Source: a virus
Virus record (IMG/VR): IMGVR_UViG_3300037070_005413
Span: 1 to 30,452 of that record
DNA: 30,452 nucleotides
Reading direction: 5' to 3' (one strand)
Shown here: piece by piece, positions 9,105 to 26,956 of the stretch
Layout: every line of letters starts with the position of its first letter
Numbering within the stretch: position 1 is the stretch's first letter
The notes under the pieces: generated by a model
Database searches by the model: none
What the model saw: only the letters and a program-made list of their open reading frames with translations
Told to the model about the DNA's origin: nothing
Position numbers and translations under genes: made by a program

Positions 9105-9133
9105 AGTGTAGCACGCGCGGGCACTAGTGTCAA
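9105..9133 (-). promoter_or_regulatory. Leftward sigma-70-type promoter for the structural module
   Basis: On the minus strand TTGACA (9128-9133), a 17-bp spacer ending GCGTGC and TACACT (9105-9110) form a near-consensus promoter. It is the only one seen ahead of the head genes, down to the terminator at 1425. Confidence 0.85.
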
Positions 9134-9260: not shown

Positions 9261-9278
9261 TCGGGGGGTTCGCGAAGC

Positions 9279-9354
9279 TAGGAACGAAGTCCTAGGAAGA
9301 AGGACCTAGGACAGAAGTCCTAAGTTGTAGGACAGAAGTCCGAGTGTAGGACCG
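9279..9354. repeat. Cluster of 14-bp dyad repeats (TAGGACAGAAGTCC type)
   Basis: Abutting units lie at 9279-9292, 9293-9306 and 9307-9320. A second perfect TAGGACAGAAGTCC lies at 9328-9341, and a partial TAGGACC at 9347-9353. The perfect copies are 21 bp apart, and each has internal dyad symmetry (GGAC-AGAA-GTCC). The cluster ends about 22 bp upstream of the first rightward promoter. Operator or origin iterons are both possible. Confidence 0.75.
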
Positions 9355-9375: not shown

Positions 9376-9404
9376 TTGCGCGCGCGCTCGCGGCGTGGTA
9401 GACT
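9376..9404 (+). promoter_or_regulatory. Rightward promoter for the first rightward gene
   Basis: TTGCGC (9376-9381), 17-bp spacer ending GGCGTGG and TAGACT (9399-9404). The -35 is weak, but spacer and -10 match the phage promoter family. A leader hairpin (GGGAGGG 9414-9420 with CCCTCCC 9442-9448) follows. Confidence 0.65.
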
Positions 9405-9465: not shown

Positions 9466-9957
9466 ATGGCACGCAAGACACACGCAGAGGCCCCGGTGCT
9501 CGAAGCCACCCTCGACGAGGCCTTTGGCCCCGCCGTCCACGCCGACCCCGACGACGCCTTCGGCCCCTTGGTCCACCCGGACGTGGCAGCCGACAACGCC
9601 AAGCGGAACTCGGTGGTCGGGACGAAGTACAAGAAGCGCTACGCGGCGCGAGCCGCAGCCCAAGGCCTCGGCAAGGCCGCGCAACGCTCCTCCTGGGACT
9701 GGTTGGCCCAGACACTGGCCGGCGAAGTCCTCGACGAGAAGGACCGGCTGGACGTCCACAGGCTCCTCGCCCTCCTCGACGCGAACGGCGTGGACCACAG
9801 CAAGTGGACGAACCGGAGCAAGGGCTGGGAAGGCAGGCTCCGAATGACAGGACGCCTCGCCCTCCAGCGCGTAGTGGCGGAAGCCGGGACGCTCCAGACG
9901 GCAGACGGCGAGACGCTCGAAGCCCCCGCCGAGTGGGTGGCGAAGTTCGCCCGCTAG
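9466..9957 (+). CDS. RMTGR-family paralog 1 (163 aa), unknown function
   Basis: ATG 9466 has a GGAGAGACGACA site. The N-terminal 40 residues are acidic and contain an internal repeat (DEAFGPAVH, DDAFGPLVH). From NSVVGTKYKKRY onward the sequence is the domain shared with three other proteins of this window (12703-13293, 16507-17373, 20648-21061). It continues SSWDWLAQTL, LLALLDANGVDHSKWTNR and KGWEGRLRMTGR, and ends EWVAKFAR. The conserved Gly-Arg-x-Arg-Met-Thr block and basic N-terminal segment suggest nucleic-acid contact, which is inference. It heads a short operon with the 58-residue gene downstream. Confidence 0.85.
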   Translation: MARKTHAEAPVLEATLDEAFGPAVHADPDDAFGPLVHPDVAADNAKRNSVVGTKYKKRYAARAAAQGLGKAAQRSSWDWLAQTLAGEVLDEKDRLDVHRLLALLDANGVDHSKWTNRSKGWEGRLRMTGRLALQRVVAEAGTLQTADGETLEAPAEWVAKFAR

Positions 9958-9964
9958 AGAACAG

Positions 9965-9986
9965 GGCGGGGCCGCAAGGCCCCGCC
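9965..9986 (+). other. Intercistronic GNRA-loop hairpin
   Basis: GGCGGGGCC, GCAA, GGCCCCGCC forms a 9-bp perfect stem just after the stop at 9957. No T-run follows, so it may protect mRNA ends or attenuate rather than terminate, letting the 58-residue gene be expressed from the same transcript. Confidence 0.7.
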
Positions 9987-10015
9987 TCCCTCCTCGAAAC
10001 AGAAGGAACACAGCA

Positions 10016-10192
10016 ATGTACTTCGTAACAAACAAACAGACCCTCGAAACCAAGCGCTGCACCGCAGAAGAAGCAGAGAAGTTGATGGAACTGGACGCAG
10101 GCGGCGAGGAACTCTCGTGGGCCGTAAGGCGCACCGGCAGGTGCGACACCGAAACCTTCGTCGCGATCCACGTCGAAGCAGACGAAGACTAG
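10016..10192 (+). CDS. Small protein (58 aa) of an MELDAG...SWAVxRTGRCDT family
   Basis: ATG 10016 follows AGAAGGAACACAGCA. The product MYFVTNKQTLETKRCTAEEAEKL... contains MELDAGGEELSWAVRRTGRCDT and ends VAIHVEADED. A close relative lies at 11394-11600. Function unknown; a compact acidic protein with two Cys. It shares a transcript with the gene at 9466 and ends before a strong terminator. Confidence 0.8.
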   Translation: MYFVTNKQTLETKRCTAEEAEKLMELDAGGEELSWAVRRTGRCDTETFVAIHVEADED

Positions 10193-10210
10193 AACCCACG
10201 AAACTACGAA

Positions 10211-10239
10211 GCCCCGGTGCGCAAGCACCGGGGCTTTTC
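10211..10239 (+). terminator. Strong rho-independent terminator
   Basis: GCCCCGGTGC, GCAA, GCACCGGGGC, then TTTTCT. A 10-bp perfect stem with a GNRA tetraloop ends the first rightward operon. Confidence 0.92.
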
Positions 10240-10311
10240 TGTATTCGCGCTCCAACGAAGCGCTTCTGCCCTGCGGCAGCGCGTCACGTAAACCCACCCG
10301 GGTGCCCCACC

Positions 10312-10340
10312 TTTTCAAGCGCCGCGCGGCGTGCTAAACT
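10312..10340 (+). promoter_or_regulatory. Promoter for the 57-aa gene
   Basis: TTTTCA (10312-10317), 17-bp spacer ending GGCGTGC and TAAACT (10335-10340). A leader stem-loop GCCGTCG/CGACGGC (10347-10365) follows, then AAAGGAG. Confidence 0.65.
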
Positions 10341-10383
10341 GCGCGTGCCGTCGGAGAGCGACGGCGAACAAAGGAGCGAACAA

Positions 10384-10557
10384 ATGACGAAAGTGTACGT
10401 AGAGAACGAAGCTGTGGTGGTGGAAGCCGAAGGCACGAAGCGCTGCTTCGCGACCTTCGTAGCAGCGGCCGAAGCGCTGGGCGCGAAGGACGCTTTCGCC
10501 ACCGCAGAAGCGATGGTAGAAGCGATCGAAGCCAAGGGCGAGTACGAAGCAGCCTAG
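10384..10557 (+). CDS. Small Ala/Glu-rich protein (57 aa), unknown
   Basis: ATG 10384 is preceded by AAAGGAGCGAACAA. The product begins MTKVYVENEAVVVEAEGTKR and continues as Ala-rich helices (FVAAAEALGAKDAF, ATAEAMVEAIEAK). It is acidic and has one Cys. It is a single-gene unit with its own promoter, leader hairpin and terminator. I do not recognise it. Confidence 0.75.
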   Translation: MTKVYVENEAVVVEAEGTKRCFATFVAAAEALGAKDAFATAEAMVEAIEAKGEYEAA

Positions 10558-10568
10558 CGAAGCACGAA

Positions 10569-10592
10569 GCCCCGGCGCGCAAGCGCCGGGGC
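10569..10592 (+). terminator. GNRA-loop terminator-like hairpin
   Basis: GCCCCGGCGC, GCAA, GCGCCGGGGC (10-bp perfect stem), followed by ACTTCTAAC. The T-run is poor, but structure and place match the terminator at 10211. Confidence 0.7.
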
Positions 10593-10668
10593 ACTTCTAA
10601 CGAAACTTTTCGCCGTAAGCGAAGCACAGAACGACCCCGACGATTCCGCCGGGGCCGTCTGCTTCTAC

Positions 10669-10800
10669 TTACTTCGCCCCGTAAGCTGCAAGCGCGGCGC
10701 GCAGCGGGCGAAGCGCGTTCTCACGCGCAGCGGAACTGATTTTCCCCGCGAAGTAAGCCCGCCAAATTTCGCCCGCCGCCAAGAAGTGATCGTGAACCAT
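10669..10800 (-). CDS. Small leftward protein (43 aa), unknown
   Basis: ATG 10800 has the GGAGAGCGAAA ribosome site used by several genes here, and a promoter 26 bases upstream. The product begins MVHDHFLAAGEIWRAYFAG and ends LRPLRAALAAYGAK; it looks amphipathic and helical. A longer frame starting at 10974 would cross the promoter, so I rejected it. A hairpin at 10632-10659 (ACGACCCCG with CGGGGCCGT) may end the transcript. Confidence 0.65.
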   Translation of the reverse strand: MVHDHFLAAGEIWRAYFAGKISSAARENALRPLRAALAAYGAK

Positions 10801-10825
10801 TTTCGCTCTCCATTGTTGACCCCCA

Positions 10826-10854
10826 ATTGTAACACAGCGCGCGGCGCTCGTCAA
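10826..10854 (-). promoter_or_regulatory. Leftward promoter for the 43-aa gene
   Basis: On the minus strand TTGACG (10849-10854), a 17-bp spacer ending GCTGTGT and TACAAT (10826-10831). It opposes the surrounding rightward genes. Confidence 0.75.
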
Positions 10855-11324
10855 GTACTGCTTCCACATTCCCGTTGCGAAAAGCTTCGCACGTAAGCCA
10901 AAGCGGGGTAGAAGGGTGGAACCTAGTTCGCCGCGCGACGAGGCGCTTCGCAGCGCGCGCGGAAAGCCAAACAACAGGTAGAATGGCCCCGAGGCAGCGT
11001 ACGCGGATTTTTACTCTACCAACCTACGTATCCCGTTCACAGCGGCCCACACCGCCCCCCTTTTTCACACACCCCCCTACAATGTTTTATTGTACAATGT
11101 TTTCCCAGCACCAATTTTCCCCGTGTAGCGGGGGGCGGGGAAAAAGAAACGTATGTTAGTAGAGTAAAAATCCGGGGTACGTAGTGTATTCAAAGGTCCT
11201 CAGCAATTCGCTTAAAACGCTTCATACGCTGCTGCACTACTTTATACCTTTCTAAATACTTCCTGGCCGTCAGCAAGCCCTTACCAAGGTCGTCATTTTC
11301 GCTGCCTGAACGTCGAAACACACC
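10855..11324. other. Gene-free stretch with an inverted-repeat element
   Basis: No convincing gene is present in about 470 bases. It contains the inverted repeat at 11005-11173. It also has pyrimidine-rich runs (11048-11078) and a GC-rich segment with repeated CGCGCG near 10930-10965. A 43-codon leftward frame at 11190-11321 needs a GTG start and lacks a clear ribosome site. Confidence 0.6.
11005..11173. repeat. 169-bp element bounded by 25-bp inverted repeats
   Basis: The left arm 11005-11029 begins GGATTTTTACTCTACC. The right arm 11149-11173 is its reverse complement except for two bases. Inside are a direct repeat TACAATGTTTT at 11078-11088 and 11093-11103, and a hairpin TTTTCCCCG with CGGGGAAAA at about 11115-11144. 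One strand of the interior is strongly C/T/A biased. Candidate roles are replication origin, cruciform, or a small non-autonomous mobile element. Confidence 0.75.
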
Positions 11325-11353
11325 TTGACACGGACCGCGCGCTGTGTTCCAAT
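11325..11353 (+). promoter_or_regulatory. Promoter for the 11394-12644 operon
   Basis: TTGACA (11325-11330), 17-bp spacer ending GCTGTGT and TCCAAT (11348-11353). The -10 is poor. A leader hairpin CGCGCC/GGCGCG (11361-11376) follows. Confidence 0.6.
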
Positions 11354-11393
11354 CCCCCCACGCGCCGGGCGGCGCGCAGAACAGGAGAGCGAA

Positions 11394-11600
11394 ATGACAA
11401 AGTACTTCGTCATCACTAAGCAGGCTTTGGCCGTGATGGAATGCAGCCTAGAAAGCGCTGCGGAAATCATGGAACTGGACGCGGGGGACATTTCTTGGGC
11501 AGTCTCTCGCACCGGAAGGTGCGACACCGACAAGCACGTCGCGATCGAAGTCGAGAGCGAGGAGCAGAAGATCGAAGCCCACCTCAAGGGACAGGAATAA
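11394..11600 (+). CDS. Small protein (68 aa), second member of the MELDAG/RTGRCDT family
   Basis: ATG 11394 has an AGGAGAGCGAA site. The product MTKYFVITKQALAVMECSLE contains IMELDAGDISWAVSRTGRCDT and VAIEVESEE, aligning end to end with the 58-residue protein at 10016 but with a longer C-terminus (KIEAHLKGQE). Function unknown. It is the first gene of a tightly packed five-gene operon; its stop TAA shares its last A with the next ATG. Confidence 0.85.
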   Translation: MTKYFVITKQALAVMECSLESAAEIMELDAGDISWAVSRTGRCDTDKHVAIEVESEEQKIEAHLKGQE

Positions 11601-11797
11601 TGGAACCCGAACTGAGTGAATACCAACAACTAACGCAACGCCTGCTGGAACTAGCAGGGCGCTTCTACACCAACGTGGAAGCCCCGAGCGAAGAGGACAT
11701 GGGAACCGTCTTTTACTATTTGGCTTTACGGGACGGGGACGCCCTCGAGAAGTTCATCAACACCTTCGAAGGAGTAGAGGAAGGAGTAATAATATGA
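11600..11797 (+). CDS. Small acidic helical protein (65 aa), unknown
   Basis: ATG 11600 overlaps the previous stop (TAATG) and is preceded by AGGGACAGGA. The product MEPELSEYQQLTQRLLELAG continues FYTNVEAPSEEDMGTVFYYL and ends in GVEEGVII. No family recognised. Translational coupling with both neighbours is expected, since its own stop overlaps the next start by 4 bases. Confidence 0.75.
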   Translation: MEPELSEYQQLTQRLLELAGRFYTNVEAPSEEDMGTVFYYLALRDGDALEKFINTFEGVEEGVII

Positions 11798-12102
11798 CAG
11801 TTCGAGTACTCAAGCTCAATAATTTGGGCGACCCCACGGGCGAGGAGCCAAAGAACTTCCCCACCGTGGAACAGGCGCAAGCCTGGTGCGTAAAAGACCG
11901 AGGCAGGCCGCTGGAATGGGGCGAGGAGGGCCGCTTCTTCTCCCTGGAAGGAATGACGAAGATAGAACAAGAACAACTGGCCGAGGCGGCCGAATACCCG
12001 CCCATTCGGTATTGGTTGTTCGGTGTGGAAGAGGACGGCACCGACCGCGAACTGGAAGACACAGACTGGGAAAATCAGGAAATGTGGGGGAGGGCAGAAT
12101 GA
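11794..12102 (+). CDS. Unknown acidic protein (102 aa)
   Basis: ATG 11794 lies within ATATGACAG, overlapping the previous stop. The product starts MTVRVLKLNNLGDPTGEEPK, followed by FPTVEQAQAWCVKDRGRPLEW and SLEGMTKIEQEQLAEAAEYP, and is acidic throughout. It looks like a small two-domain alpha/beta protein; no function assigned. It overlaps the next gene by 4 bases. Confidence 0.78.
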   Translation: MTVRVLKLNNLGDPTGEEPKNFPTVEQAQAWCVKDRGRPLEWGEEGRFFSLEGMTKIEQEQLAEAAEYPPIRYWLFGVEEDGTDRELEDTDWENQEMWGRAE

Positions 12103-12356
12103 ACCAGCTTTACACGTGGGACGAACTGACCAACGAAGTGATGCGTTGGGACCCCGAAGACCTATTCAAGTCCGACATGGACAACGGGTGGGAAACGGCG
12201 GGCTGGTTGGAATGCGACGGCAAGCTCACCGACGTAAGGGCCACAACCAATGGGAGGCACTTTGGCCTTATGTGTTGGGCGGGCAGCGAACTCGAGGCCA
12301 AGGTGAAGTTCACGCAGGACAAGCGGTACCGCGAATACCAGGAAGAGGAGGCGTAA
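12099..12356 (+). CDS. Unknown small protein (85 aa)
   Basis: ATG 12099 overlaps the previous stop (ATGA) with GGGGGAGGG upstream. The product is rich in Trp and acidic residues: MNQLYTWDELTNEVMRWDPE, DNGWETAGWLECDG, then CWAGSELEAKVKFT and a charged end. It might be a small protein inhibitor or DNA mimic, judged only from charge. No homologous family recognised. Confidence 0.75.
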   Translation: MNQLYTWDELTNEVMRWDPEDLFKSDMDNGWETAGWLECDGKLTDVRATTNGRHFGLMCWAGSELEAKVKFTQDKRYREYQEEEA

Positions 12357-12644
12357 ATGGGAATGGACTTACTAGCCAAGAACGGAGAAGCATCCCGTTA
12401 CAATTGGCAAGGCTGGAGTTGGTTTGTTGACTTCGTGAAGCAACACGGCGTGAACACAGCCGATTTCTCCTGGACCAACGACGGGGCGAAAATCCCTGAG
12501 GAAGTCTGTAAGGAAGTCGCCAAAGCGATTCGGGACGGGAGCGTGGAATACAACTACGCATTCGCTGGCGAGAGTTACGGTTTGGCCCCGGCCGAGGAAC
12601 ACGCCAAGTTCTGGGAGAACTCAGGCGGCGTCGAACAGTGGTAG
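12357..12644 (+). CDS. Conserved phage protein (95 aa), MGMDLLxKNGEASRYNW type
   Basis: ATG 12357 starts directly after the previous stop with GAAGAGGAGG upstream. The start MGMDLLAKNGEASRYNWQGW followed by WSWFVDF and NDGAKIPEEVCKEVA resembles a widespread small phage protein group (MGMDVxGKxP...YFRxNxWxW), whose function is unknown to me. YGLAPAEEHAKFWENSGGVEQW is the typical end, found where this family closes with a W-rich strand. It is the last gene before a bidirectional terminator. Confidence 0.8.
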   Translation: MGMDLLAKNGEASRYNWQGWSWFVDFVKQHGVNTADFSWTNDGAKIPEEVCKEVAKAIRDGSVEYNYAFAGESYGLAPAEEHAKFWENSGGVEQW

Positions 12645-12656
12645 CTTAGATACGAA

Positions 12657-12690
12657 AAATCCGCCGGCTCCTTTCGGGACCGGCGGATTT
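12657..12690. terminator. Bidirectional terminator between convergent operons
   Basis: AAATCCGCCGG (12657-12667) pairs with CCGGCGGATTT (12680-12690), flanked by A-rich sequence on the left and T-rich on the right. It serves the rightward operon ending at 12644 and the leftward gene ending at 12703. Confidence 0.88.
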
Positions 12691-12702
12691 GTTGTATTTG
12701 GG

Positions 12703-13293
12703 TTACTCTTTGGTCTTGAAGCGCGCGACGAATTCAGGCGGAGCCGTAACGTCCTGTCCGTCTCCCATCTTCAAGATGCCAGCGTTCGCCACCACCTTCT
12801 GCAGCGCGACACGCCCGGTCATTCTGAACCGGCCTTCCCAACCCTTGTTGCGGTTGGTCCAGCGCGAATGATCGACACCATTGGCGTCGAGCAGGGCGCG
12901 GAAGTCGTCGATCCGGATCTTCTCCTTCTCACCCAAGCAGGCCGCAGCAATCTGCTGCGAGAGCCAGTCCCAATTCGACCGCTTGGCCGCCTTGCCCTTG
13001 ATCCCCGCCGCCCTCGCATTCGCCAGGTACTTGTCCTTGAACTTCGCGGCGACAACCGAATTGTTCTGCTTGTTGTCCTCTTCCACCTCTGCCTCGGCGG
13101 CCAATTCGGCGGCGTCCACTTCGTTCAGTGAAGGTTCACCCTCCTCTGTGTTCGCCTCCACTTCCGCAGGCGGAGCGCTCTCCGTGCGCACGTCTTCGGC
13201 CACAGCTCCTTCGCCATGTGCTTCCAAGCGGTCAGCTTCGATCTGTGCGAGTTCTTCATCGTCTGCCTTGTATTTACGCTTTCGCTTTGCCAT
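12703..13293 (-). CDS. RMTGR-family paralog 2 (196 aa), unknown function
   Basis: ATG 13293 is chosen because GGAGAGCGAA precedes it exactly as in other genes here. The product starts with a basic stretch (MAKRKRKYKADDEE), then about 80 acidic Glu/Ala-rich residues. From NNSVVAAKFKDKY onward it carries the shared domain: SNWDWLSQQI, FRALLDANGVDHSRWTNR and KGWEGRFRMTGR. It ends PEFVARFKTKE. It is the closest relative of the protein at 9466; the main difference is the long acidic N-terminus. It is transcribed alone, against its neighbours, from its own promoter. A nucleic-acid-binding or DNA-mimic role is conceivable but unproven. Confidence 0.87.
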   Translation of the reverse strand: MAKRKRKYKADDEELAQIEADRLEAHGEGAVAEDVRTESAPPAEVEANTEEGEPSLNEVDAAELAAEAEVEEDNKQNNSVVAAKFKDKYLANARAAGIKGKAAKRSNWDWLSQQIAAACLGEKEKIRIDDFRALLDANGVDHSRWTNRNKGWEGRFRMTGRVALQKVVANAGILKMGDGQDVTAPPEFVARFKTKE

Positions 13294-13331
13294 TTCGCTC
13301 TCCATCGCGGTCGTTGATCGACCGGACCCCA

Positions 13332-13360
13332 ACTCTACCACGCCGTGGGTTGGCTGTCAA
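13332..13360 (-). promoter_or_regulatory. Leftward promoter for RMTGR paralog 2
   Basis: On the minus strand TTGACA (13355-13360), 17-bp spacer ending GGCGTGG and TAGAGT (13332-13337). A leader stem-loop CGGTCG/CGACCG (13308-13324) precedes the ribosome site. Confidence 0.85.
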
Positions 13361-13424
13361 GTGGGTTTCCAATATTCCAGGCGCGAAGCAATTATCTTTA
13401 TCCCCGGAACATGTGAAGTGATAC

Positions 13425-13453
13425 TTGACAACAAGCGCGCCGTGTGCTATACT
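13425..13453 (+). promoter_or_regulatory. Rightward promoter for the 13494 operon
   Basis: TTGACA (13425-13430), 17-bp spacer ending CGTGTGC and TATACT (13448-13453). A leader stem-loop CGTCCAC/GTGGACG (13459-13480) follows. It is back to back with the promoter at 13332-13360. Confidence 0.9.
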
Positions 13454-13493
13454 ACCGACGTCCACCGCTACGCGTGGACGAACGGAGAACGAA

Positions 13494-13712
13494 ATGAGCG
13501 AACAAGAAAACCTGGAAAAGGTAGCGCACGAACTAGTCAAAGCCGTGCGCTCGGTTACTTGGGTTGGCTACACTGTTTGGGCAGCTATATTCGCCTACCT
13601 GGCCCTCATATTCGCTGTTGAAATGGGATCGTTCCTGCTGCGACACTTAGACGTGGCGGCTATGATAATCCTGTGCTCAGCGGCGTTCATCTTGTGGGAG
13701 AACAATAAATGA
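13494..13712 (+). CDS. Small membrane protein with two spans (72 aa)
   Basis: ATG 13494 follows CGGAGAACGAA. The N-terminal 18 residues are charged (MSEQENLEKVAHELVKAV). Hydrophobic spans follow: VGYTVWAAIFAYLALIFAV and, after a short polar loop, VAAMIILCSAAFILW, ending ENNK. This could be an early membrane protein, such as a superinfection or antiholin-type factor, or a holin; nothing in the sequence decides. Its stop overlaps the next ATG by 4 bases (ATGA). Confidence 0.8.
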   Translation: MSEQENLEKVAHELVKAVRSVTWVGYTVWAAIFAYLALIFAVEMGSFLLRHLDVAAMIILCSAAFILWENNK

Positions 13713-14002
13713 GGGTGAAAGCGGATTACCATGCGCCCGACGAATTCCTGCGATTTGATCAGTATTCAGTGGCGATCAAGGATGGCGAGTTCCATGTGAT
13801 GCAGATACTGAAGGACCTTGATCTATTCGCTGCGTCACTCGTCGCAGGCGTAACCCAAGATGACTTTGTAGAGTCTATCTGCTACACCGGTTGGTGTGGA
13901 ACCTGTCCGGAATGGACGAATTACCACCCAATCGTTACAGTTCCGCGCGGGGGCATCCTTGCCCTCGATCAATTGGGCTTCATGATGGAGTCCTTGCAAT
14001 AG
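13709..14002 (+). CDS. Unknown protein (97 aa)
   Basis: ATG 13709 overlaps the upstream stop, so translation is probably coupled. The product MRVKADYHAPDEFLRFDQYS continues VAIKDGEFHVMQILKDLD, CYTGWCGTCPEW and PRGGILALDQLGFMM. The CxxxxCxxC-like cluster (YTGWCGTC) could bind metal, but there are only three Cys. No family recognised. Confidence 0.75.
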   Translation: MRVKADYHAPDEFLRFDQYSVAIKDGEFHVMQILKDLDLFAASLVAGVTQDDFVESICYTGWCGTCPEWTNYHPIVTVPRGGILALDQLGFMMESLQ

Positions 14003-14074
14003 GCCAAGCGCGTGCCCATTCGCGCTTGGCCGCCCCGGTGGTGATGGGTTCTCTCCGTTCCCCTCCCACCGGGG
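14002..14074 (+). other. Two adjacent stem-loops between genes
   Basis: GGCCAAGCGCG (14002-14012) pairs with CGCGCTTGGCC (14021-14031). CCCCGGTGG (14033-14041) pairs with CCACCGGGG (14066-14074). No T-run follows either. They mark a transcript boundary or processing site before the A/T-rich gene at 14095. Confidence 0.75.
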
Positions 14075-14094
14075 TCCTATTCACAGGAGGTAAT

Positions 14095-14511
14095 ATGGCA
14101 ACTAAAGAAGAAATAGATCGAGTGCTCACCATTTTCGAATTAAAGAAGAAATCTGGCGCGCTGTCGATGAAAGAAAAGAACCTTGTAAGAGAGGCTGCCT
14201 TATTTGGTTGTCTGTATCGGGATGAATGGAATTGGAGGCCAGAAGAAGACGTAAAAAGAGCGATGCTTTATACGCGAAATTATATCCGCCATAATGCGAT
14301 GGTGGAATTATTAGATCGTGTGACAGATATTGTTATAAAAGAGCCGAGTATGCCATCGAATGTGTTGCTTTTAGACCTTCTTTTATCACTGGAAGAAGCT
14401 TACTTTATAAAGGTAGGTCCAGACATAGAAAAAGCTAAGAAAATGATGATAGAAAATATAGATAAAATAAAGTGGAAGAAGGAGGGGTGCATTTCGCCCG
14501 AGGACTTGTGA
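14095..14511 (+). CDS. Unknown AT-rich, Lys-rich gene (138 aa)
   Basis: ATG 14095 has an excellent CAGGAGGTAAT site; longer in-frame starts cross two hairpins and were rejected. The product is helical: EEIDRVLTIFELKKKSGALS, VREAALFGCLYRDEWNW, then a Lys/Ile-rich tail (IEKAKKMMIENIDKIKWKKE). Its codons are clearly richer in A/T than the flanking genes (AGA, ATA and AAA are frequent), which suggests separate acquisition. No domain recognised. It overlaps the next start by one base. Confidence 0.78.
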   Translation: MATKEEIDRVLTIFELKKKSGALSMKEKNLVREAALFGCLYRDEWNWRPEEDVKRAMLYTRNYIRHNAMVELLDRVTDIVIKEPSMPSNVLLLDLLLSLEEAYFIKVGPDIEKAKKMMIENIDKIKWKKEGCISPEDL

Positions 14512-14744
14512 TGACTGTATACACGATATTCGCAAAGGTTGTGTCCGTAGAAAGAAGAATGAAACAAGTTTATCACAGCGGATTGGGTGAGGAAGCTAAG
14601 TTCTACGACGAAGACAAAGGGTACTTCATGCTGCTAGAAGGTTCGCACGAGGCTTTACACATTGGCTTTGACGAACCTGAGTTCAAAGTAGGCGATCTGG
14701 TAAAGATCACATTCGAAAAGGTGAAAAATGGCAGACAACGGTAA
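14511..14744 (+). CDS. Unknown small protein (77 aa), possibly a beta-barrel fold
   Basis: ATG 14511 overlaps the previous stop (TGATG) within GAGGACTTGTG. The product MTVYTIFAKVVSVERRMKQVY continues FYDEDKGYFMLLEGSHEALH and ends in VGDLVKITFEKVKNGRQR. Alternating polar/hydrophobic strands with a final VGDLVKI strand are OB-like, an impression only. It overlaps the next gene by 17 bases. Confidence 0.72.
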   Translation: MTVYTIFAKVVSVERRMKQVYHSGLGEEAKFYDEDKGYFMLLEGSHEALHIGFDEPEFKVGDLVKITFEKVKNGRQR

Positions 14745-15153
14745 GAGAAATTCAACCACAGAATCACTCCCGGCAGATAGAAAGGCAGCGGTCGAAGCGG
14801 GCTTGGCCCACTACCAGCTTGTGTCGGCTGAGCGCGACAAGCTGATGGGCGAAATTGCTCATCTAAGGAGCGACATGGCCGCCTTGAAAGTGGTGGCGGA
14901 AGCTCAGAAGTCCCAACTAACCGATATGGAAAGCCGCATGGCTTCGATGATGGCTGTTCGCGATCAGGCGGTGGCGGAACGAGCGAAGTATGAGACGTTA
15001 TTCATTTCCTTCCAGGCCATGCTCCGCGCATTCAAAGTGCCCGCCGCGCCTTTTATAAAAGAGGTAGAAGAGAATGAAGCCAGCGATGAGCAGCCTCGCC
15101 ATCTTGATCGCGAGTACCAGTCTACTATGGACACACTCAATAATAAAAACTGA
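14728..15153 (+). CDS. Coiled-coil protein (141 aa), unknown
   Basis: ATG 14728 follows GAAAAGGTGAAAA. After a polar start the region from about residue 30 to 100 is a heptad-like coiled coil (VSAERDKLMGEIAHLRSDMAA, LTDMESRMASMMAVRDQAV). A less charged segment (FISFQAMLRAFKVPAAPF) and an acidic tail follow. It has no signal peptide or membrane span. Its end overlaps the next gene by 80 bases in another frame. Confidence 0.75.
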   Translation: MADNGKRNSTTESLPADRKAAVEAGLAHYQLVSAERDKLMGEIAHLRSDMAALKVVAEAQKSQLTDMESRMASMMAVRDQAVAERAKYETLFISFQAMLRAFKVPAAPFIKEVEENEASDEQPRHLDREYQSTMDTLNNKN

Positions 15154-15319
15154 AGCGGCCCCGCTCGTATGCATGACGAAGGCTGAAGCTCAGGCTCGTT
15201 GGCCGAAGGCATGGCTGTATTGGCATACAGCGAAGCGCTGCTGGGACAACACGCCTAATAGAAATAAGAAGTTCTATTGGGTGGTGGTCCCACTTAGCAA
15301 GGAAGATAAGCTCAAATGA
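15074..15319 (+). CDS. Exported small protein (81 aa) with LYWHTxxRCWD signature
   Basis: ATG 15074 follows AGAGGTAGAAGAGA. The first about 29 residues look like a signal peptide: MKPAMSSLAILIASTSLLWTH, then IIKTEAAP. The mature part begins VCMTKAEAQARWPKAWLYWH and contains TAKRCWDNTP with two Cys. I associate this signature with small periplasmic proteins of Rhizobiales and their phages; the function is unknown. No lipobox is seen. The signal-peptide region overlaps the coiled-coil gene by 80 bases. It could be a lysis or superinfection factor (inference). Confidence 0.75.
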   Translation: MKPAMSSLAILIASTSLLWTHSIIKTEAAPLVCMTKAEAQARWPKAWLYWHTAKRCWDNTPNRNKKFYWVVVPLSKEDKLK

Positions 15320-15405
15320 AACATAAGATAGACGAAGTTGGTTGGGCTGTCATCATACTTGCGGCTGCCCTCGGCTTAGTCTTGTTTATCACATTGGTAT
15401 ATTGA
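15316..15405 (+). CDS. Single-span membrane micro-protein (29 aa)
   Basis: ATG 15316 overlaps the preceding stop (ATGA), with AGGAAGATAAGCTCAA upstream. The product MKHKIDEVGWAVIILAAALG continues LVLFITLVY, a basic N-terminus plus one hydrophobic helix. Its stop TGA is part of the TTGACA of the next promoter. Very short, but its coupled start and composition support a real gene. Confidence 0.6.
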   Translation: MKHKIDEVGWAVIILAAALGLVLFITLVY

Positions 15406-15430
15406 CAGCGGCACGTACGTGTGGTATACT
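15402..15430 (+). promoter_or_regulatory. Promoter for the 15457 operon
   Basis: TTGACA (15402-15407), 17-bp spacer ending CGTGTGG and TATACT (15425-15430). The -35 overlaps the stop codon of the micro-protein. Confidence 0.9.
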
Positions 15431-15456
15431 TGTTGGTCGATCACACGGAGAGCAAC

Positions 15457-15753
15457 ATGCGAATCCCCCTAGACGAATACACCAACGTAACGACGGATGG
15501 GTTTGGTAATATCTACGTCACTCGCCATTGCATCTTCAATAGCAAGGTGCGGACCCACAAGCTGGCGACCAAGGAATACGACCCAATTGCCATCGCTCTT
15601 TGGCTCAAGAATCGCATTGAACGCAATACTAACCCGATGGTGCAGGTCGCGTTCCCCAACATGAACGCCGAGGATCGTGAGTTCCTCATGACCGGCATTA
15701 CCCCCGCCGAGTGGAACGAGATGTTCCCAAAGGTAGAGAGTGAGGATGAATGA
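15457..15753 (+). CDS. Unknown protein (98 aa)
   Basis: ATG 15457 has the ACGGAGAGCAAC site. The product MRIPLDEYTNVTTDGFGNIY continues VTRHCIFNSKVRTHKLATKEY, then a helical part (IAIALWLKNRIERNTNPM) and EFLMTGITPAEWNEMFP. The C-terminal segment resembles small phage proteins with TGIxPxEWxxMF, but I cannot name one. It overlaps the next start by 4 bases, so it is coupled to the putative regulator. Confidence 0.78.
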   Translation: MRIPLDEYTNVTTDGFGNIYVTRHCIFNSKVRTHKLATKEYDPIAIALWLKNRIERNTNPMVQVAFPNMNAEDREFLMTGITPAEWNEMFPKVESEDE

Positions 15754-16463
15754 AGCTGTCCGAAGTAATCAACAACCTGGAACCAGATTGTAAGTCTACA
15801 ATCGAGGCCATGGTTTCCAAGGCGGGGCTGAATGGGGACGCAACCATAGATCAGTTGGCGTCCTTATACCCCCACACCGACACCGGAATGACCAGGGACG
15901 AGCGCTTAGCGCTCGTTTCCCTTGTCTTTATCCGAAGTAATAGGTTCGCTCCCAAATTGGACTTCCCTAAAAGGTGCGAAATACTTGCCCTATACCGGAA
16001 GGGACTTACCAGGGACGCGTTGTCTTCTATATACAACGTGGATAGGCGCACCATAACCCATATTTACAATCCAGCTTCGCCACACTACAAGAACGTGCGG
16101 CAGGCGGAAATCGGTATGGGAACAGAACGATTCCAAGAGACTTATCTAACCCCCGACGCATTGAACAAGGCGCTGGCATTTATAGAGGAAAGGAAGGATA
16201 AAGGTATAGGAACTATAAACAATAAGCACGCCAATAAGAAGGCTGGTATTCACACCATGCGCGGCGAAATGTGCAGTTATGACCATCGCGTTATGATTCA
16301 ATGGCGCGAGGACCCAGTTCCCGGCTGGTATTACTGCGATTTGGATGGAGATTTTCCCGACAAATGGTTCACCACCGATGAGAATTCGTGTAAAACCAGC
16401 CAAGCGTGTTATGTGGGAGCATTACGTGACATAGCAGATAAACTGCTAGGAAGCATGGCTTGA
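15750..16463 (+). CDS. Putative DNA-binding protein with helix-turn-helix (237 aa)
   Basis: ATG 15750 overlaps the previous stop. Residues about 73-105 (KRCEILALYRKGLTRDALSS, then IYNVDRRTITHIYNP) look like a helix-turn-helix of the resolvase or Trp-repressor-like kind: A/L-x3-G-x5-LS-x-I-Y-x-V-x-R-R-T-I. The N-terminal part is helical and polar; the C-terminal half is aromatic and acidic (VMIQWREDPVPGWYYCDLDG). Likely a phage regulator acting on promoters in this region; target sites are not known. The palindromes at 17424-17506 are candidates. The stop overlaps the TTGACA of the next promoter. Confidence 0.65.
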   Translation: MKLSEVINNLEPDCKSTIEAMVSKAGLNGDATIDQLASLYPHTDTGMTRDERLALVSLVFIRSNRFAPKLDFPKRCEILALYRKGLTRDALSSIYNVDRRTITHIYNPASPHYKNVRQAEIGMGTERFQETYLTPDALNKALAFIEERKDKGIGTINNKHANKKAGIHTMRGEMCSYDHRVMIQWREDPVPGWYYCDLDGDFPDKWFTTDENSCKTSQACYVGALRDIADKLLGSMA

Positions 16464-16488
16464 CAAGGACACGCGGCTGTGCTACACT
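16460..16488 (+). promoter_or_regulatory. Promoter for RMTGR paralog 3, very short leader
   Basis: TTGACA (16460-16465), 17-bp spacer ending GCTGTGC and TACACT (16483-16488). The expected start near 16495 leaves only about 12 bases before ATG 16507, mostly taken by the GGAGGAGG site. Confidence 0.9.
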
Positions 16489-16506
16489 GTCACATGGAGG
16501 AGGCAC

Positions 16507-17373
16507 ATGAATATTCATCACACGAAGATCAAGCAGGCAATGGCCATTGGCTGCCATCTAAGCGCGGAATCTAGCCATCGTTTCCGTATATTCTGGCCTC
16601 AGCAATCGGTTGAGCTATTCGCTCACTCTGTGGACGAAGCGCTAGACGAAATGCGCGCGACCCAAAGCATTCTACACCACAATCCAGACTACAAGATGGT
16701 GACCAACCATATAAACTTGGATGTAATTCTAACGAATCGAATAACTGGCAAGATGATGAGGGAATCCCCTGCTTCACCCAGCGAAATATGGGCAATCATT
16801 GAGGCGGAAGAAGACCACTGGGTAATGCCATTAGGAGCGCCCCCTCCGGAGGAAGAAGCCAGCGATAGAATAAGCGGGGTACACATAAGTGGTACCGTTG
16901 CTCACAAGGAGGGTGTTCCGGCCGGGGATTGTCCCTATCCTGAAGAGAGCGACGATTTTGCTCGTTGGAACGACGAGTGGGACGAAGCCGCTGAGAAGGC
17001 ACTAAACCCGCCACCCAAAGGATCGGTGGTGACGAATCGATATCGGGCTACATATTCGGAGTTTGGGCACCCCACCCATTGTGGGGACGAACTGGCCATT
17101 CTACTCAACAACATATGCCTCAACAAAGCGGGCACGAACATAGACCTGTTCGAAGCGATCTGTGTCGCTAACGGCGTAAGTTTAACGAAGTACGATCGTA
17201 TTGCCAAGGGATGGCAAGGCCGCCTTCGTATGACTGGACGAAATCTGCTCGCCAAGAAGATAAGGGAGAACGGCGGCAAGTTACGGATGCCGGAGAATAT
17301 GAGCCCCGATGAATACAGAATGAGTAGAGAATGGCTAGAATTGGCAGAGAAGAAATACAAGCCCAAAACGTAG
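16507..17373 (+). CDS. RMTGR-family paralog 3 fused to a second N-terminal domain (288 aa)
   Basis: ATG 16507 follows GGAGGAGGCAC. Residues 1-90 form a domain with IKQAMAIGCHLSAESSHRFRI, LFAHSVDEALDEMRA and HHNPDYKM, a pattern found in other phage proteins of unknown role. An acidic, Pro-rich linker of about 90 residues follows. The C-terminal part has the shared domain: GSVVTNRYRATY, HCGDELAILLNNICL, LFEAICVANGVSLTKY and KGWQGRLRMTGRNLL. The fusion places the RMTGR domain at the C-terminus. A nucleic-acid-related role is possible but not shown. Confidence 0.85.
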   Translation: MNIHHTKIKQAMAIGCHLSAESSHRFRIFWPQQSVELFAHSVDEALDEMRATQSILHHNPDYKMVTNHINLDVILTNRITGKMMRESPASPSEIWAIIEAEEDHWVMPLGAPPPEEEASDRISGVHISGTVAHKEGVPAGDCPYPEESDDFARWNDEWDEAAEKALNPPPKGSVVTNRYRATYSEFGHPTHCGDELAILLNNICLNKAGTNIDLFEAICVANGVSLTKYDRIAKGWQGRLRMTGRNLLAKKIRENGGKLRMPENMSPDEYRMSREWLELAEKKYKPKT

Positions 17374-17423
17374 CTGCCCCCGGCACAGGTACCTCAGCCG
17401 GTGGGTAGCTACGCCACGGGGCG

Positions 17424-17506
17424 GCGTACCGTACGCGGTGCGCTGTCCCACCCCGCCAGCTGCTGACATAGCTGGCCCACCCCGCAGCCCACGGCGTATC
17501 ATACGC
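17424..17506. promoter_or_regulatory. Two related perfect palindromes, candidate operator pair
   Basis: GCGTAC-C-GTACGC (17424-17436) and GCGTAT-C-ATACGC (17494-17506) share the form GCGTAY-C-RTACGC and are 70 bp apart centre to centre. Both follow a CACGG-type segment. Between them lies a hairpin CCAGCT/AGCTGG (about 17456-17475). The second palindrome is 24 bases upstream of the gene at 17530, for which no TTGACA promoter is seen. Confidence 0.65.
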
Positions 17507-17529
17507 CCGCAGCGCACAAGGAGACGACA

Positions 17530-17907
17530 ATGAAAGAGTTGTCCGCAGAACAAGTAAATGAAGTAGAGAAACTGGTGATTTCGCTAGACCAGGCGAAAGA
17601 CGCCGTGAACGAAAAGTTACTTGAACTGAATAAGTATGTCGACGAACTTAACGACAAGATTCAAGCATATAACAATGCCCTTAAGAACGCAAGGGATTTT
17701 TGTGACAATATCCTAGAAAGCATGAAAAATTACTTCTCCGAACAAGAAGACGACTGGCGCGAAGGCGATGAGGGCGAAAAGTACACTGGTTGGATAGATG
17801 AGTGGGATGAACCCAATTTGGAATACCTTAATTTGGTCAACGAAGTAGAAATTGAGGGTCTTACTCACGCCGAGGCACTACAAGACCTGTCCACGTCGCT
17901 TGAATAG
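17530..17907 (+). CDS. Acidic coiled-coil protein (125 aa), unknown
   Basis: ATG 17530 has an AAGGAGACGACA site. The first 70 residues are a long heptad-patterned helix (MKELSAEQVNEVEKLVISLD, LELNKYVDELNDKIQAYNNAL). A very acidic C-terminal half follows (EQEDDWREGDEGEKYTGW, EYLNLVNEVEIEGLTHAEA). It stands alone behind the palindromes. The charge pattern fits a small adaptor or DNA-mimic protein, but that is speculation. Confidence 0.78.
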   Translation: MKELSAEQVNEVEKLVISLDQAKDAVNEKLLELNKYVDELNDKIQAYNNALKNARDFCDNILESMKNYFSEQEDDWREGDEGEKYTGWIDEWDEPNLEYLNLVNEVEIEGLTHAEALQDLSTSLE

Positions 17908-17918
17908 TCATTAATATC

Positions 17919-17947
17919 TTGACAGCCGACCACGGCTGTGCTATACT
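17919..17947 (+). promoter_or_regulatory. Promoter for the PrimPol-helicase gene
   Basis: TTGACA (17919-17924), 17-bp spacer ending GCTGTGC and TATACT (17942-17947), near consensus. Confidence 0.92.
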
Positions 17948-17955
17948 GCTATCTG

Positions 17956-18016
17956 TGCCCCTGACAAGCCGCGACGAGGACCAAGGGTTGGCCAACCCCC
18001 TCGTCGCGGTGGGGCA
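17956..18016 (+). promoter_or_regulatory. Long leader stem-loop before the PrimPol gene
   Basis: Nested pairing: TGCCCC (17956-17961) with GGGGCA (18011-18016), CCGCGACGAG (17969-17978) with CTCGTCGCGG (18000-18009), and an inner GGTTGGCCAACC palindrome. It would form right at the 5' end of the mRNA and ends just ahead of the ribosome site, so it may stabilise the message or gate translation. Confidence 0.75.
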
Positions 18017-18028
18017 AATGGGGACTTC

Positions 18029-20566
18029 ATGGAACAAATCAAGGGTGGATTCGCATTTAGCGATGCTGATGAGAAGACAATAAACCAGCAGCGAAGTATC
18101 ACCGCCCAGATAAACAACAATTTCATACAAGTCGGTGCCGTATTTCTACAAATGTCCGGCAAAAATCCGTTCACTACGGATTGGCACAAAAAGAAATTCA
18201 AGGACACTAATCTCCAAGAATGGATCGACGACCCCGATATGAGGGTCTTAAATCTAGGCTTCAACCTACAATTTGGCTGGTTGGACGTAGATATCGACGC
18301 CGAAGACCCCCGCTACAACAAGTGTATACTAAGCGCATTCAACTTCCTGGATATCGACACTAGGTTCGCCTTTGGGCGGTTATCCAAGAATGTCCCATCC
18401 CACATTATGGTTCAGCTGAGCGAATCTGACCTAGCAAACTACGACATGATGAAGGAGTTTGAACCCAATGAGTTCAAGTTGGATAGTAAAAGATATAAGT
18501 GCGAACTACGTTCCATGGGACCGGTTCCGCCAGAGGCACAAAATACTATCAAAGAAGCGCGCCAAACCGTTATGCCCGGAAGTATCTATATTCATAAGAC
18601 CAAATCAGGCGAATTTGATATTTCGGTATGGTACACGAATACCGGCAAGGCTGCTATCTCGGTTGGTGAAGTCGCCGCTACCACCCCAAGAAAGACGGCC
18701 TTCTCATCGCTGATTACGGGCATCGCATTCGGCACCTTCCTATATATTCTACAGCCCCATTGGGTTGAAGGTACCCGGCAGAACTTAGCCATCAAGGTAG
18801 CTGGTTGGCTTGCGCGCTTAGTGCGCGAATCCAGAGGCATCAACGAAAACGACAACGTATCGCGCGGCACTTATTGCCCCGTTGGTACGCCCGAAATGGC
18901 CGAGTCCATGTTGGACTTCCTATGTGGCGAATTAGGCGACCACGAAGCCTTCATGAGAAAGCGAGTATTCCGTGACGCTATTAAAAAGCTGGAGAATAAT
19001 CCGGATGCTAAAATTCCCGGCTGGCCCGCGCTGGAAGGTGATATCGGTACAGAGAGTATACTTGCCTTACGAACAGTGTTCATGCCGGGTGTGGATGTTT
19101 CGCCTCTCACGAAGATGGCGGATCGTTATATTTACGATGAAACCGATGACAAGTACATTGACCGAGAACGATTCTACACCATATCGGGATTCGTTCACGA
19201 TGGGGCTGAACTTGATCGCAGACACCGAAATGACCTTATGGAAGTAGCGGGCAAGATGAAGCCTGTGTTCAAGCTGTTTGAGTCATCGCCGCTGCGAAGA
19301 CGAGTAGGTGGAAGAGACCTCTACCCCGATTTTAAACCAGGCTCTATATTCAGACTATCCCGCGCAGGCGGTATCATTCCGGACGACCAAGATAACGAAT
19401 CCGGTATGATGACTGTGTTCAACACTTGGCGCGGCTGGCCTATTCTACCAAGCCAAAATCCGGACCCTAATCTATTGGCTAAGTGTAATTCTATGATGGA
19501 CCAGTTATTTGAATACCTAAGCCAAGGCAATAAACAGCAAGCGGAATGGCTAAAACAATGGATCGCTTGGACAGTTCAGTTCCCTGGCCAGAAGCAACAA
19601 GTTGCTCCGGTACTGATTGGTGGCCAAGGGATTGGCAAATCTTTCTTTGGGAATGTGTTCCTGGAGCAGTTATTTCAGAACCAATGGGGTTCCGCGTCAC
19701 CGAAAATCCTAGAAGGTGCATTTTCTGTGGAGCCATTTATCAACAAAATGTTCGTATTCATAGACGAAGCGAAATTCTATAGTGAAGCTAGCACCGACGA
19801 AATCAAGAAATTGATCCGCGCCGATCGCCTTGGCGGGGCCGAGAAGTTCCAATCCGCACGAACCTACCGCATATTTGCCCGCGTGGTATTCGCCTCCAAT
19901 CGATTTGACATGAACATCGGCCAACAGAACACACAAGACCGCGCTTTGTTCTACATGAAGACATACGACAAGGACTTCATGAAGCAGACCGAGCAGGGGT
20001 TTAAGAATTGGACGGTTACTCTCAAGCCATTCTTCGACGAGTTTAATGCGTTCATTCACCGCATGGATGTTAAGGAGCACTTCATGTACATCTTCAATAC
20101 GATGGGAGTAAATCGTCATGACCTTGAAAATACAGCACTTTCCTCTGGTTCTGACAGTCACATCATTGAATCCAACATGTCTTACGCTAGGCGAGTTGCT
20201 AAGGCAATTGTCGAGGAAGGACGCATCTGGGAAGATTTGGACATATCAGCTCCATTCACCACAGCCGAATTTAACAAGCGGGTTAGTGATACTTGCGAAT
20301 CAGCGCGAATTAGATTTGTCCAACCCCGACATGTATTTGAGGAATTTACAAGCGCCGGGCTGATAGAGGCTTGGGTGCACGGATCGTCCAAATACTGGCG
20401 CTTCAAATCCAAAATAGGTACCCTCACCGAAGAATTCGGCAATGCTATAGGGGTGAAGTTGGAATCCCGGTTTGAGTTCAGCGATGATGACTTCGGGCCA
20501 AATACATCGGAATTTAAAGGGGCGAAACCGTGGAGAGGGAACTCAGGAAGATTTGGCAACCTATAA
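18029..20566 (+). CDS. Primase-polymerase fused to SF3 helicase (845 aa)
   Basis: The N-terminal domain looks like an archaeo-eukaryotic primase/PrimPol: WLDVDID (Asp86, Asp88, Asp90) as the metal-binding motif, then GRLSKNVPSHIMVQL (His125) as the second motif. A long middle part follows. The C-terminal half is a D5/SF3-type replicative helicase: GGQGIGKS Walker A (residues 531-538), MFVFIDEAKF Walker B (Asp579, Glu580) and FARVVFASNRFD as the SF3 motif C with sensor Asn. Such fusions start and unwind phage replication. It has its own promoter and structured leader. ATG 18029 lies after GGGGACTTC. The third primase catalytic motif was not pinned down by eye. Confidence 0.88.
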   Translation: MEQIKGGFAFSDADEKTINQQRSITAQINNNFIQVGAVFLQMSGKNPFTTDWHKKKFKDTNLQEWIDDPDMRVLNLGFNLQFGWLDVDIDAEDPRYNKCILSAFNFLDIDTRFAFGRLSKNVPSHIMVQLSESDLANYDMMKEFEPNEFKLDSKRYKCELRSMGPVPPEAQNTIKEARQTVMPGSIYIHKTKSGEFDISVWYTNTGKAAISVGEVAATTPRKTAFSSLITGIAFGTFLYILQPHWVEGTRQNLAIKVAGWLARLVRESRGINENDNVSRGTYCPVGTPEMAESMLDFLCGELGDHEAFMRKRVFRDAIKKLENNPDAKIPGWPALEGDIGTESILALRTVFMPGVDVSPLTKMADRYIYDETDDKYIDRERFYTISGFVHDGAELDRRHRNDLMEVAGKMKPVFKLFESSPLRRRVGGRDLYPDFKPGSIFRLSRAGGIIPDDQDNESGMMTVFNTWRGWPILPSQNPDPNLLAKCNSMMDQLFEYLSQGNKQQAEWLKQWIAWTVQFPGQKQQVAPVLIGGQGIGKSFFGNVFLEQLFQNQWGSASPKILEGAFSVEPFINKMFVFIDEAKFYSEASTDEIKKLIRADRLGGAEKFQSARTYRIFARVVFASNRFDMNIGQQNTQDRALFYMKTYDKDFMKQTEQGFKNWTVTLKPFFDEFNAFIHRMDVKEHFMYIFNTMGVNRHDLENTALSSGSDSHIIESNMSYARRVAKAIVEEGRIWEDLDISAPFTTAEFNKRVSDTCESARIRFVQPRHVFEEFTSAGLIEAWVHGSSKYWRFKSKIGTLTEEFGNAIGVKLESRFEFSDDDFGPNTSEFKGAKPWRGNSGRFGNL

Positions 20567-20580
20567 TATTCAAGGGGTAC

Positions 20581-20609
20581 TTGACAGCAACGCGCGGCTG
20601 TGATATAGT
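20581..20609 (+). promoter_or_regulatory. Promoter for RMTGR paralog 4
   Basis: TTGACA (20581-20586), 17-bp spacer ending GCTGTGA and TATAGT (20604-20609). A small leader hairpin (GGGG/CCCC) and CAGGAGACTGTA follow. Confidence 0.88.
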
Positions 20610-20647
20610 CGCGTGTAGGGGATGGACCCCAATAACAGGAGACTGTA

Positions 20648-21061
20648 ATGAGTGAAGAGACCAAAGCGCCGGAAGCCGAGACGGAAGTGAAGACCACGAA
20701 GTCGATTGTTCCGTCCAAGTACTCCGGCCGATACAAGAACGGCGGCGAAGACCCGCTCGCGATGTTCATTAAGGCGCAATGCGCCGACGACAAGGGGTTC
20801 AGCTTCGACAAGTTCTTCGAACTGTGCTCCAAGAACGGAATCGCGCAGGAGAAGGTCGACCACTACAAGGGCCAGGTCGCTGAGAAGCGGCACGGTGCCG
20901 AAGGTCGCGCTCGTATGACCCTTCGGAACATGCTGGCGACGTTTGCCCGCAAGAACGGCAAGCTGGTGGGTCTGGACGACGCGGAAGTGGAGGTCGCTCT
21001 CCCGAAGGTCGCGTTGACCGGCGCAGCGAAAGCGGCGGCTGAGAAGCAAGCCGCAGCGTAA
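20648..21061 (+). CDS. RMTGR-family paralog 4 (137 aa), unknown function
   Basis: ATG 20648 has a CAGGAGACTGTA site. It is the most divergent member: KSIVPSKYSGRYKNGG, DKFFELCSKNGIAQEK, then EKRHGAEGRARMTLRNMLA, where the block reads RMTLR instead of RMTGR. The tail is Ala/Lys-rich (TGAAKAAAEKQAAA). Placed directly after the PrimPol gene, it links the family to replication by context. Abundant expression is suggested by its own near-consensus promoter. Confidence 0.83.
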   Translation: MSEETKAPEAETEVKTTKSIVPSKYSGRYKNGGEDPLAMFIKAQCADDKGFSFDKFFELCSKNGIAQEKVDHYKGQVAEKRHGAEGRARMTLRNMLATFARKNGKLVGLDDAEVEVALPKVALTGAAKAAAEKQAAA

Positions 21062-22727: not shown

Positions 22728-22758
22728 GGAGTGGGCGCAAATGCCCACTCCCATTTTT
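22728..22758 (+). terminator. Rho-independent terminator ahead of the polymerase
   Basis: GGAGTGGGC (22728-22736) pairs with GCCCACTCC (22743-22751), then CATTTTT. It lies between the SSB-like gene and the polymerase, whose ribosome site starts just after the T-run, so partial read-through may set polymerase levels. Confidence 0.85.
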
Positions 22759-22769
22759 ATGGAGTGTCG

Positions 22770-25531: not shown

Positions 25532-25878
25532 TGAAGAAGAAATCAGAGCCAGCCAAAGAAATCGAGCAAGTAAAGCCCAAGCATAGCGAAGCTATCCTCA
25601 GCGAAGCCCTACAGGCGGTTAAGAGCAAGGGCGTCGAGCACGGCGATGCCGAAGCACTATTCACCATGGTGGCGGAATTGTGGTCGGTGTATATTCGCCA
25701 CGCCTGCATTGTTCGCGGTTGGACCGAAGTGACCGCCGACGAAACAGCCCAAATGATGGTCCTGCTTAAGATCGCACGTTCGGTGCACGGCAACGGCAAG
25801 GATAATTATGTCGATGCCGCTGGTTACACCGCCCTCGCAGCGATGCTCCAAGGCAAGGTGCCAAATGACAACAGATAG
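25531..25878 (+). CDS. DUF6378-like protein (115 aa)
   Basis: ATG 25531 overlaps the nuclease stop (TGATG) with AAGGAGAAAG upstream. A Lys/Glu-rich N-terminus precedes ILSEALQAVKSKGVEHGDAE, then LFTMVAELWSVYIRH and a C-terminal MMVLLKIARSVHGNGKDNYVD helix ending DAAGYTALA. The GVEHGD and KDNYVDxAGY motifs are typical of a small all-helical phage family (DUF6378). Some of its helical features recall MazG-like pyrophosphatases, but no ExxE/ExxD set is present. It overlaps purZ by 14 bases, so it is coupled to the Z cassette. Confidence 0.78.
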   Translation: MKKKSEPAKEIEQVKPKHSEAILSEALQAVKSKGVEHGDAEALFTMVAELWSVYIRHACIVRGWTEVTADETAQMMVLLKIARSVHGNGKDNYVDAAGYTALAAMLQGKVPNDNR

Positions 25879-26944: not shown

Positions 26945-26956
26945 TGGGAGGAAGCA

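Follow-up and report, generated by a model that had tools for sequence, protein, structure and literature searches.

The window, the whole 30,452-bp stretch of viral DNA analysed here, encodes four related proteins, P1–P4, and the open reading frames that a first-pass annotation had grouped as one family are all present. P1 (9466..9957, plus strand, 163 amino acids) opens the rightward early region and joins an acidic tail (pI 4.5) to a basic family domain (9604..9954, plus strand, pI 10.0). P2 (12703..13293, minus strand, 196 amino acids) is inverted and probably a later duplicate of the P1 type, with an acidic tail (pI 4.2) and a family domain at 12706..13065 (minus strand, pI 10.1). P3 (16507..17373, plus strand, 288 amino acids) carries an N-terminal alpha-beta3-alpha module and an RMF-like stretch ahead of its family domain (17017..17370, plus strand, pI 9.6). 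P4 (20648..21061, plus strand, 137 amino acids) has a short acidic tail and a family domain (20696..21058, plus strand, pI 9.4), with a primase gene immediately 5' of it, as also in Ochrobactrum phage OH. The shared domain, originally put at about 90 residues, is confirmed but spans about 117–121 residues and reaches the C terminus of each protein. An acidic extension had been credited to a single protein; N-terminal acidic tails (pI 4.2–4.9) occur in all four, as does a basic domain (pI 9.4–10.1). Likewise, the one protein described as fused to an extra N-terminal domain is P3, which has two N-terminal modules rather than one. The record is probably a fragment, given its 30,452 bp and the 41–45 kb of its relatives.

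P1–P4 are paralogs of common descent, as the first-pass annotation had proposed, and all six pairwise local alignments scored above every one of 500 shuffles. P1–P2 is the strongest pair (393, shuffle maximum 70), followed by P3–P4 (115, maximum 57), P2–P3 (110, maximum 63), P1–P3 (106, maximum 53) and P1–P4 (70, maximum 50); P2–P4 is the weakest (74 against a maximum of 66), and P3 bridges these two. Single-sequence phmmer searches of the open reading frames of related loci joined P3 to P4 at E 2.5e-7 and P1/P2 to P3 at 1e-7 to 7e-9. Eighteen alignment columns are invariant among the four domains, including S-x-V, Y, N-G and G-x-x-GR-x-RMT-x-R. AlphaFold predicts helix-helix-helix-beta-beta-helix for the P2 domain (m3d6d9669b621, pLDDT 80, 98-row alignment). 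Foldseek searches of a library of viral models with this prediction returned the three OH paralogs (E 8e-9, 1.5e-4 and 7e-3) and no other convincing match, so the predicted fold is common to them. Unrelated folds or an already described function had been named as grounds against the proposal; both were looked for, and neither was found.

The accessory modules of P3 are absent from P1, P2 and P4. Residues 1–62 (16507..16692, plus strand) form an alpha-beta-beta-beta-alpha module in the P3 model (m3cba5ac857a6, pLDDT 88), and comparison with PDB structures placed HPF/RaiA hibernation factors at the top (Z 4.2–4.6; best rmsd 2.6 over 62 residues). This likeness in a predicted structure is a hint, since the first rank (Z 4.6) is shared with a designed protein and release factors. 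The RMF-like stretch, residues 129–162 (16891..16992, plus strand), reads AYKEG..AGDCPY....W...WD.AAD in relatives; PF04957 (RMF) weakly matches 4 of 33 P3 members (best E 0.022), the window copy having no match. In many P3 orthologs the RMF-like stretch is kept and the N-terminal module missing.

A tree of 98 domains puts P4 and P2 into a single clade each (SH-aLRT 100 each) and unites P1 and P2 with related copies (SH-aLRT 96). The simplest reading of this tree is that P1, P3 and P4 are three older copies and that P2 would be a later P1-type duplicate within the window's sub-lineage. All 22 long related records of the window's lineage encode 1–4 copies, and 21 of the 22 encode 2–4. Order is kept among relatives, with P1 first in the early region, then the inverted P2, P3, and P4 right after the primase. 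The conserved orthologous groups point to separate jobs for the paralogs and, with the kept order and orientation and the differing accessory modules, favour distinct targets over mere dose. An important job for the family, proposed initially as dose- or target-specific, is thus supported in its target-specific form by old, conserved copies, with dose less favoured.

Scans of P1–P4 and 98 relatives against Pfam and PHROGs gave nothing above noise, so the earlier remark that no functional name was known for the domain is right as to sequence families. Searches of the PDB by sequence profile returned chance matches only, and Foldseek and VIA-align with the P2-domain model returned neither a PDB match at E < 2 nor a DNA-binding fold of known kind. 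H-NS-like and HeH/SAP-like assignments, which depended on likeness by eye or on one member at E 0.01, were dropped. The order of helices and beta-hairpin in ProQ/FinO appears to match that of the family domain, and this order and the spacing of motifs prompted a direct comparison. A profile of 11 ProQ/FinO domains reached an hhalign probability of 0.4% against the family, and PF04352 exceeded its cut-off in 0 of 21 records, with no match in the window; ProQ/FinO structures were also not among the Foldseek matches of the P2-domain model, an absence that excludes nothing. Two scans of 84,980 bacterial and archaeal genomes yielded 13 candidates, none of which encodes a relative, and as far as these scans show the family is not cellular. 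Neither a family name nor a link to 2-aminoadenine (Z) genomes was found in the portion of the open-access literature covered, and a 2026 survey of Z phages does not mention hypothetical, unknown-function or DNA-binding proteins under those terms (PMC12884076). We rate the family as a part, overlooked until now, of phages of an established kind.

A weak tblastn match in Burkholderia phage Bm1, where the family HMM reached E 3e-5 among 190 open reading frames, led to a remote family, here called B, which includes the Bm1 relatives, is related to phrog_8941 (no assigned function) and has the core KY.HLN.GMQRMNLGN.IRG. Against a deep profile of 124 B sequences, the window family gave an hhalign score of 36.7, a probability of 90% and a pair E of 1.5e-6, although such single-pair E-values flatter the homology because the Bm1 lead was picked out of a search of many phages. 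A P3-only profile reached 94% and the P1/P2 sub-profile alone 20%, against a score of 9.9 and a probability of 0.2% for the ProQ control. A smaller B profile scored 27.7 (51%), and none of 200 column-shuffled controls exceeded 17.0 (2.4%). The reciprocal HMM test is less affected by the choice of lead: the B model found 6 matches among 13,687 open reading frames of the window's lineage, all of them family members, and the window-family model found 4 among 12,704 of the B lineage, all of them B members. Remote homology between the two families is supported by profile comparison and by the reciprocal HMM searches alike. The window proteins have no direct match to the phrog_8941 model, and so remote a relation would account for their not being filed there.

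The two families are alike in motif order (KY, GD.xA, KY..N.G..RM[TN]..N.L) and in that several genes per phage are common, at least two B genes occurring in 44 of 84 family-B loci. They differ in the turn, which is a shorter G-x-QRMN in B and GWxGRxRMT in the window family, and in that conservation in B stops after the RM helix and other accessory parts occur, such as a C2H2-like zinc finger in the PMBT28 group. In PMBT28, VLCpiS6a and PSA28, the B proteins have an N-terminal GGWTTYVDHNGATRK segment and the finger, KCDRCETEFLSQEALDEHIAEH, before the domain; the finger again points to nucleic acid. Carriers of family B include phiVC8 (p36), Alteromonas phage ZP6, BUCT555, PMBT28, SH-Ab 15497 and Burkholderia phage Bm1. 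In the last, 67.5 kb long, PurZ and a DatZ match accompany three family-B genes.

Genes for a Z genome lie in the window outside the family. PurZ, 2-amino-adenylosuccinate synthetase (25808..26944, plus strand; phrog_1211, E 7e-50), has the motif GSTGKG, with Ser at the position of the PurA catalytic Asp, a replacement given as a PurZ criterion in PMC8515928. A DatZ-like dATP triphosphohydrolase (27246..27824, plus strand; phrog_7076, E 1e-24) follows, and between them, at the MazZ position, lies a small open reading frame (26957-27259) that has no Pfam or PHROGs match; in the corresponding position OH has a gene with a pyrophosphohydrolase annotation. The window also encodes a family A DNA polymerase with 3'-5' exonuclease, a candidate DpoZ (22731..24560, plus strand; DNA_pol_A, E 6e-40), a primase/helicase (18029..20566, plus strand; DUF5906, VapE-like; 50% identical to the OH primase-polymerase) and a SNF2-type helicase. 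Judged from PurZ, the small frame at the MazZ position and the DatZ-like gene (25808-27824), the window is very likely from a 2-aminoadenine phage. The first-pass interpretation missed this 2-aminoadenine setting, from which the likely role of the family follows. PurZ, DatZ, MazZ and DpoZ occur in the same phages but are enzymes of nucleotide supply or polymerisation, whereas the family has no enzyme signature.

Among isolates, Ochrobactrum phage vB_OspP_OH (Wolominvirus, 41,227 bp) is the nearest, and its p04, p15 and p23 are orthologs of P1/P2, P3 and P4, alike in order and predicted fold; OH has three copies, all annotated as hypothetical, and the window four. As in the window, OH carries a PurZ-pyrophosphohydrolase-HD block, at 16531-18696 of its locus, and this shared block makes OH probably an unrecognised Z-genome phage. 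In the part of its description available, the block was read as nucleotide salvage and the family genes were not named (PMC7139368).

Near-exclusive co-occurrence of the family with PurZ over several phage lineages is well supported, with the proviso that the records counted are related and hence not independent trials. Among related records of at least 31 kb, 30 of 30 tested have both the family (1–4 copies) and PurZ; PurZ is present in 22 of 22 long family-bearing records of the window's lineage and in 9 (19.9–45.0 kb) of 14 more distant ones, the 5 without it being pieces of 5.8–22.6 kb. All 12 family-B isolates tested encode PurZ (phiVC8, JSF9, K300, ZP6, BUCT555, PMBT28, VLCpiS6a, PSA28, Kokobel2, Acinetobacter phages 53 and pB23, and Bm1), as does SH-Ab 15497 beyond these, against a background of PurZ or PurZ0 in 198 of 50,697 phage records (0.4%). 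PurZ was also found in 42 of 50 IMG/VR contigs with family B. The other eight lack DatZ as well; one of them matches a PurZ-positive record at 99.9% identity along 8.4 kb, four are 74–78% identical to such records, and the remaining three are pieces of 22–27 kb with no such match to account for them. The converse, from PurZ to the family, rests on the isolates, as the best 80 PurZ matches listed among viral contigs are mostly of the window's lineage. Enterococcus phage 9181, a negative control with a weak initial match, has no PurZ and no relative in that region by HMM, its one marginal match (family HMM A5, E 0.003) lying inside an 874-amino-acid frame. We regard a link between the family and PurZ as highly probable.

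Searches found no family member in S-2L, in the PurZ0-type phages Wayne, Ghobes and Hiyaa or in Bacillus phage vB_BpsS-140, and hence not every Z genome requires one; JWX, for which no PurZ is annotated, gave none either. PurZ phages are reported to use DpoZ-2 and PurZ0 phages DpoZ-1 (PMC12884076), and S-2L is reported to use a PrimPol (PMC8065100). Given its absence from S-2L and the PurZ0-type phages, which use other polymerases, the family tracks the PurZ/DpoZ-2 type and not Z genomes in general.

Almost confined, together with its distant relatives, to 2-aminoadenine phages, the family probably helps these to handle their unusual DNA. Z adds a minor-groove amino group and a third hydrogen bond to the base pair, changes that should interfere both with strand opening and with host proteins that bind the minor groove, which makes a phage-encoded DNA-handling set a reasonable need. 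We put at roughly 45% the probability that P1–P4 are nucleic-acid-binding proteins for replication or transcription on Z-DNA, accessory to 2-aminoadenine biology. The compact basic domain, with its invariant GR-x-RMT-x-R helix start, would bind nucleic acid, most naturally the Z-containing DNA of the phage; the acidic N-terminal tail is probably disordered, and the paralogs may bring different partners to that DNA. P4, whose position beside the primase suggests a replication role, would work with the primase/polymerase block, P1 and P2 may be early regulators or architectural proteins, and P3 may bring RNA- or ribosome-type modules. What we infer is binding to nucleic acid, a preference for Z-DNA or a tolerance of it, and this split of roles. 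A stricter version, in which P1–P4 serve specifically as recognition or architectural proteins of Z-DNA and read or handle the minor groove of 2-aminoadenine-thymine pairs, is unlikely; such proteins would be needed if host minor-groove binders and promoter melting perform poorly on A:T pairs with three bonds and an extra amino group.

The association with PurZ could in part reflect a shared module, since a SNF2/SF2 helicase, PolA, a primase and the PurZ-pyrophosphohydrolase-HD block are common to the window, OH, phiVC8, ZP6 and BUCT555. The family might then be an ordinary early gene that hitch-hikes in phages sharing an ancestral replication module and is functionally unconnected with 2-aminoadenine. 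We consider this somewhat improbable: PMBT28, SH-Ab 15497 and the 67-kb Bm1 have both the family and PurZ despite quite different gene orders, a tblastn search of 50,697 phage records with the Bm1 B protein gave no convincing match outside PurZ-bearing genera, and JWX has a weakly related primase yet lacks the family, DatZ and an annotated PurZ.

Two further readings give the proteins another target, and each seems to us distinctly improbable. In one, they act on RNA or the ribosome, in a takeover of host translation, rather than on phage DNA; the P3 N-terminal module nearest to HPF/RaiA (Z 4.6, rmsd 2.6 over 62 residues), the RMF-like stretch of P3 relatives (PF04957, best E 0.022) and an order of domain elements that appears to match that of the FinO/ProQ RNA chaperones fit this idea, but every match is weak, the ProQ/FinO profile gives 0.4%, PF04352 matches no window member, and the modules are missing from P1, P2 and P4 and, for the N-terminal one, from many P3 orthologs. 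In the other, they bind and inhibit host proteins, for takeover or counter-defence, with different targets for the several versions, as early position, consensus sigma-70-type promoter matches, small size, acidic tails and diverged copies might suggest. Unlike host-specific inhibitors, however, the family is kept in Z phages whose hosts are unrelated (Vibrio, Acinetobacter, Burkholderia, Alteromonas and Ochrobactrum), and its domain is basic with an invariant RM core. Work on Z phages has so far centred on dZTP synthesis and polymerisation; for the replication, transcription and compaction of DNA with three-bonded A:T pairs and a filled minor groove, the family, read as accessory DNA-handling proteins, is a concrete candidate part. 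It is small, multi-copy and directly clonable and assayable, and since it marks PurZ-type Z phages of several lineages, it may serve as a marker for finding them.

The first-pass annotation had given each gene its own promoter. A TTGNNN-N17-TANNNT match does lie 5' of each, for P1 at 9376..9404 (plus strand, TTGCGC-N17-TAGACT, 90 nt upstream), for P2 at 13332..13360 (minus strand, TTGACA-N17-TAGAGT, 67 nt), for P3 at 16460..16488 (plus strand, TTGACA-N17-TACACT, 47 nt) and for P4 at 20581..20609 (plus strand, TTGACA-N17-TATAGT, 67 nt), but consensus matches do not prove expression. A promoter-like element, TTGACA-N8-CGCGGC[GT]TG[CG]TA[TC]ACT, recurs in the window, at 13420, 15397, 16455, 17914, 20576, 21309 and 27518 and on the minus strand near 9105, 10826 and 13336. 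Conservation of its spacer beside the -10 exceeds that of a plain sigma-70 site, and the spacer could hold an operator. A second pair of small diverged paralogs (10016-10192 and 11394-11600; 58 and 68 amino acids), without a family match, corresponds to repeats D4 (75% identical) and D8 (70% identical). Upstream of P1, at 9278-9333, are two tandem 28-nt repeats, 79% identical and rich in GTCCTA/TAGGAC. The 10200-11350 interval contains GC-rich hairpins at 10206-10240 and 10564-10598, 89% identical to each other, and a 45-nt inverted repeat at 11004-11048/11130-11174.
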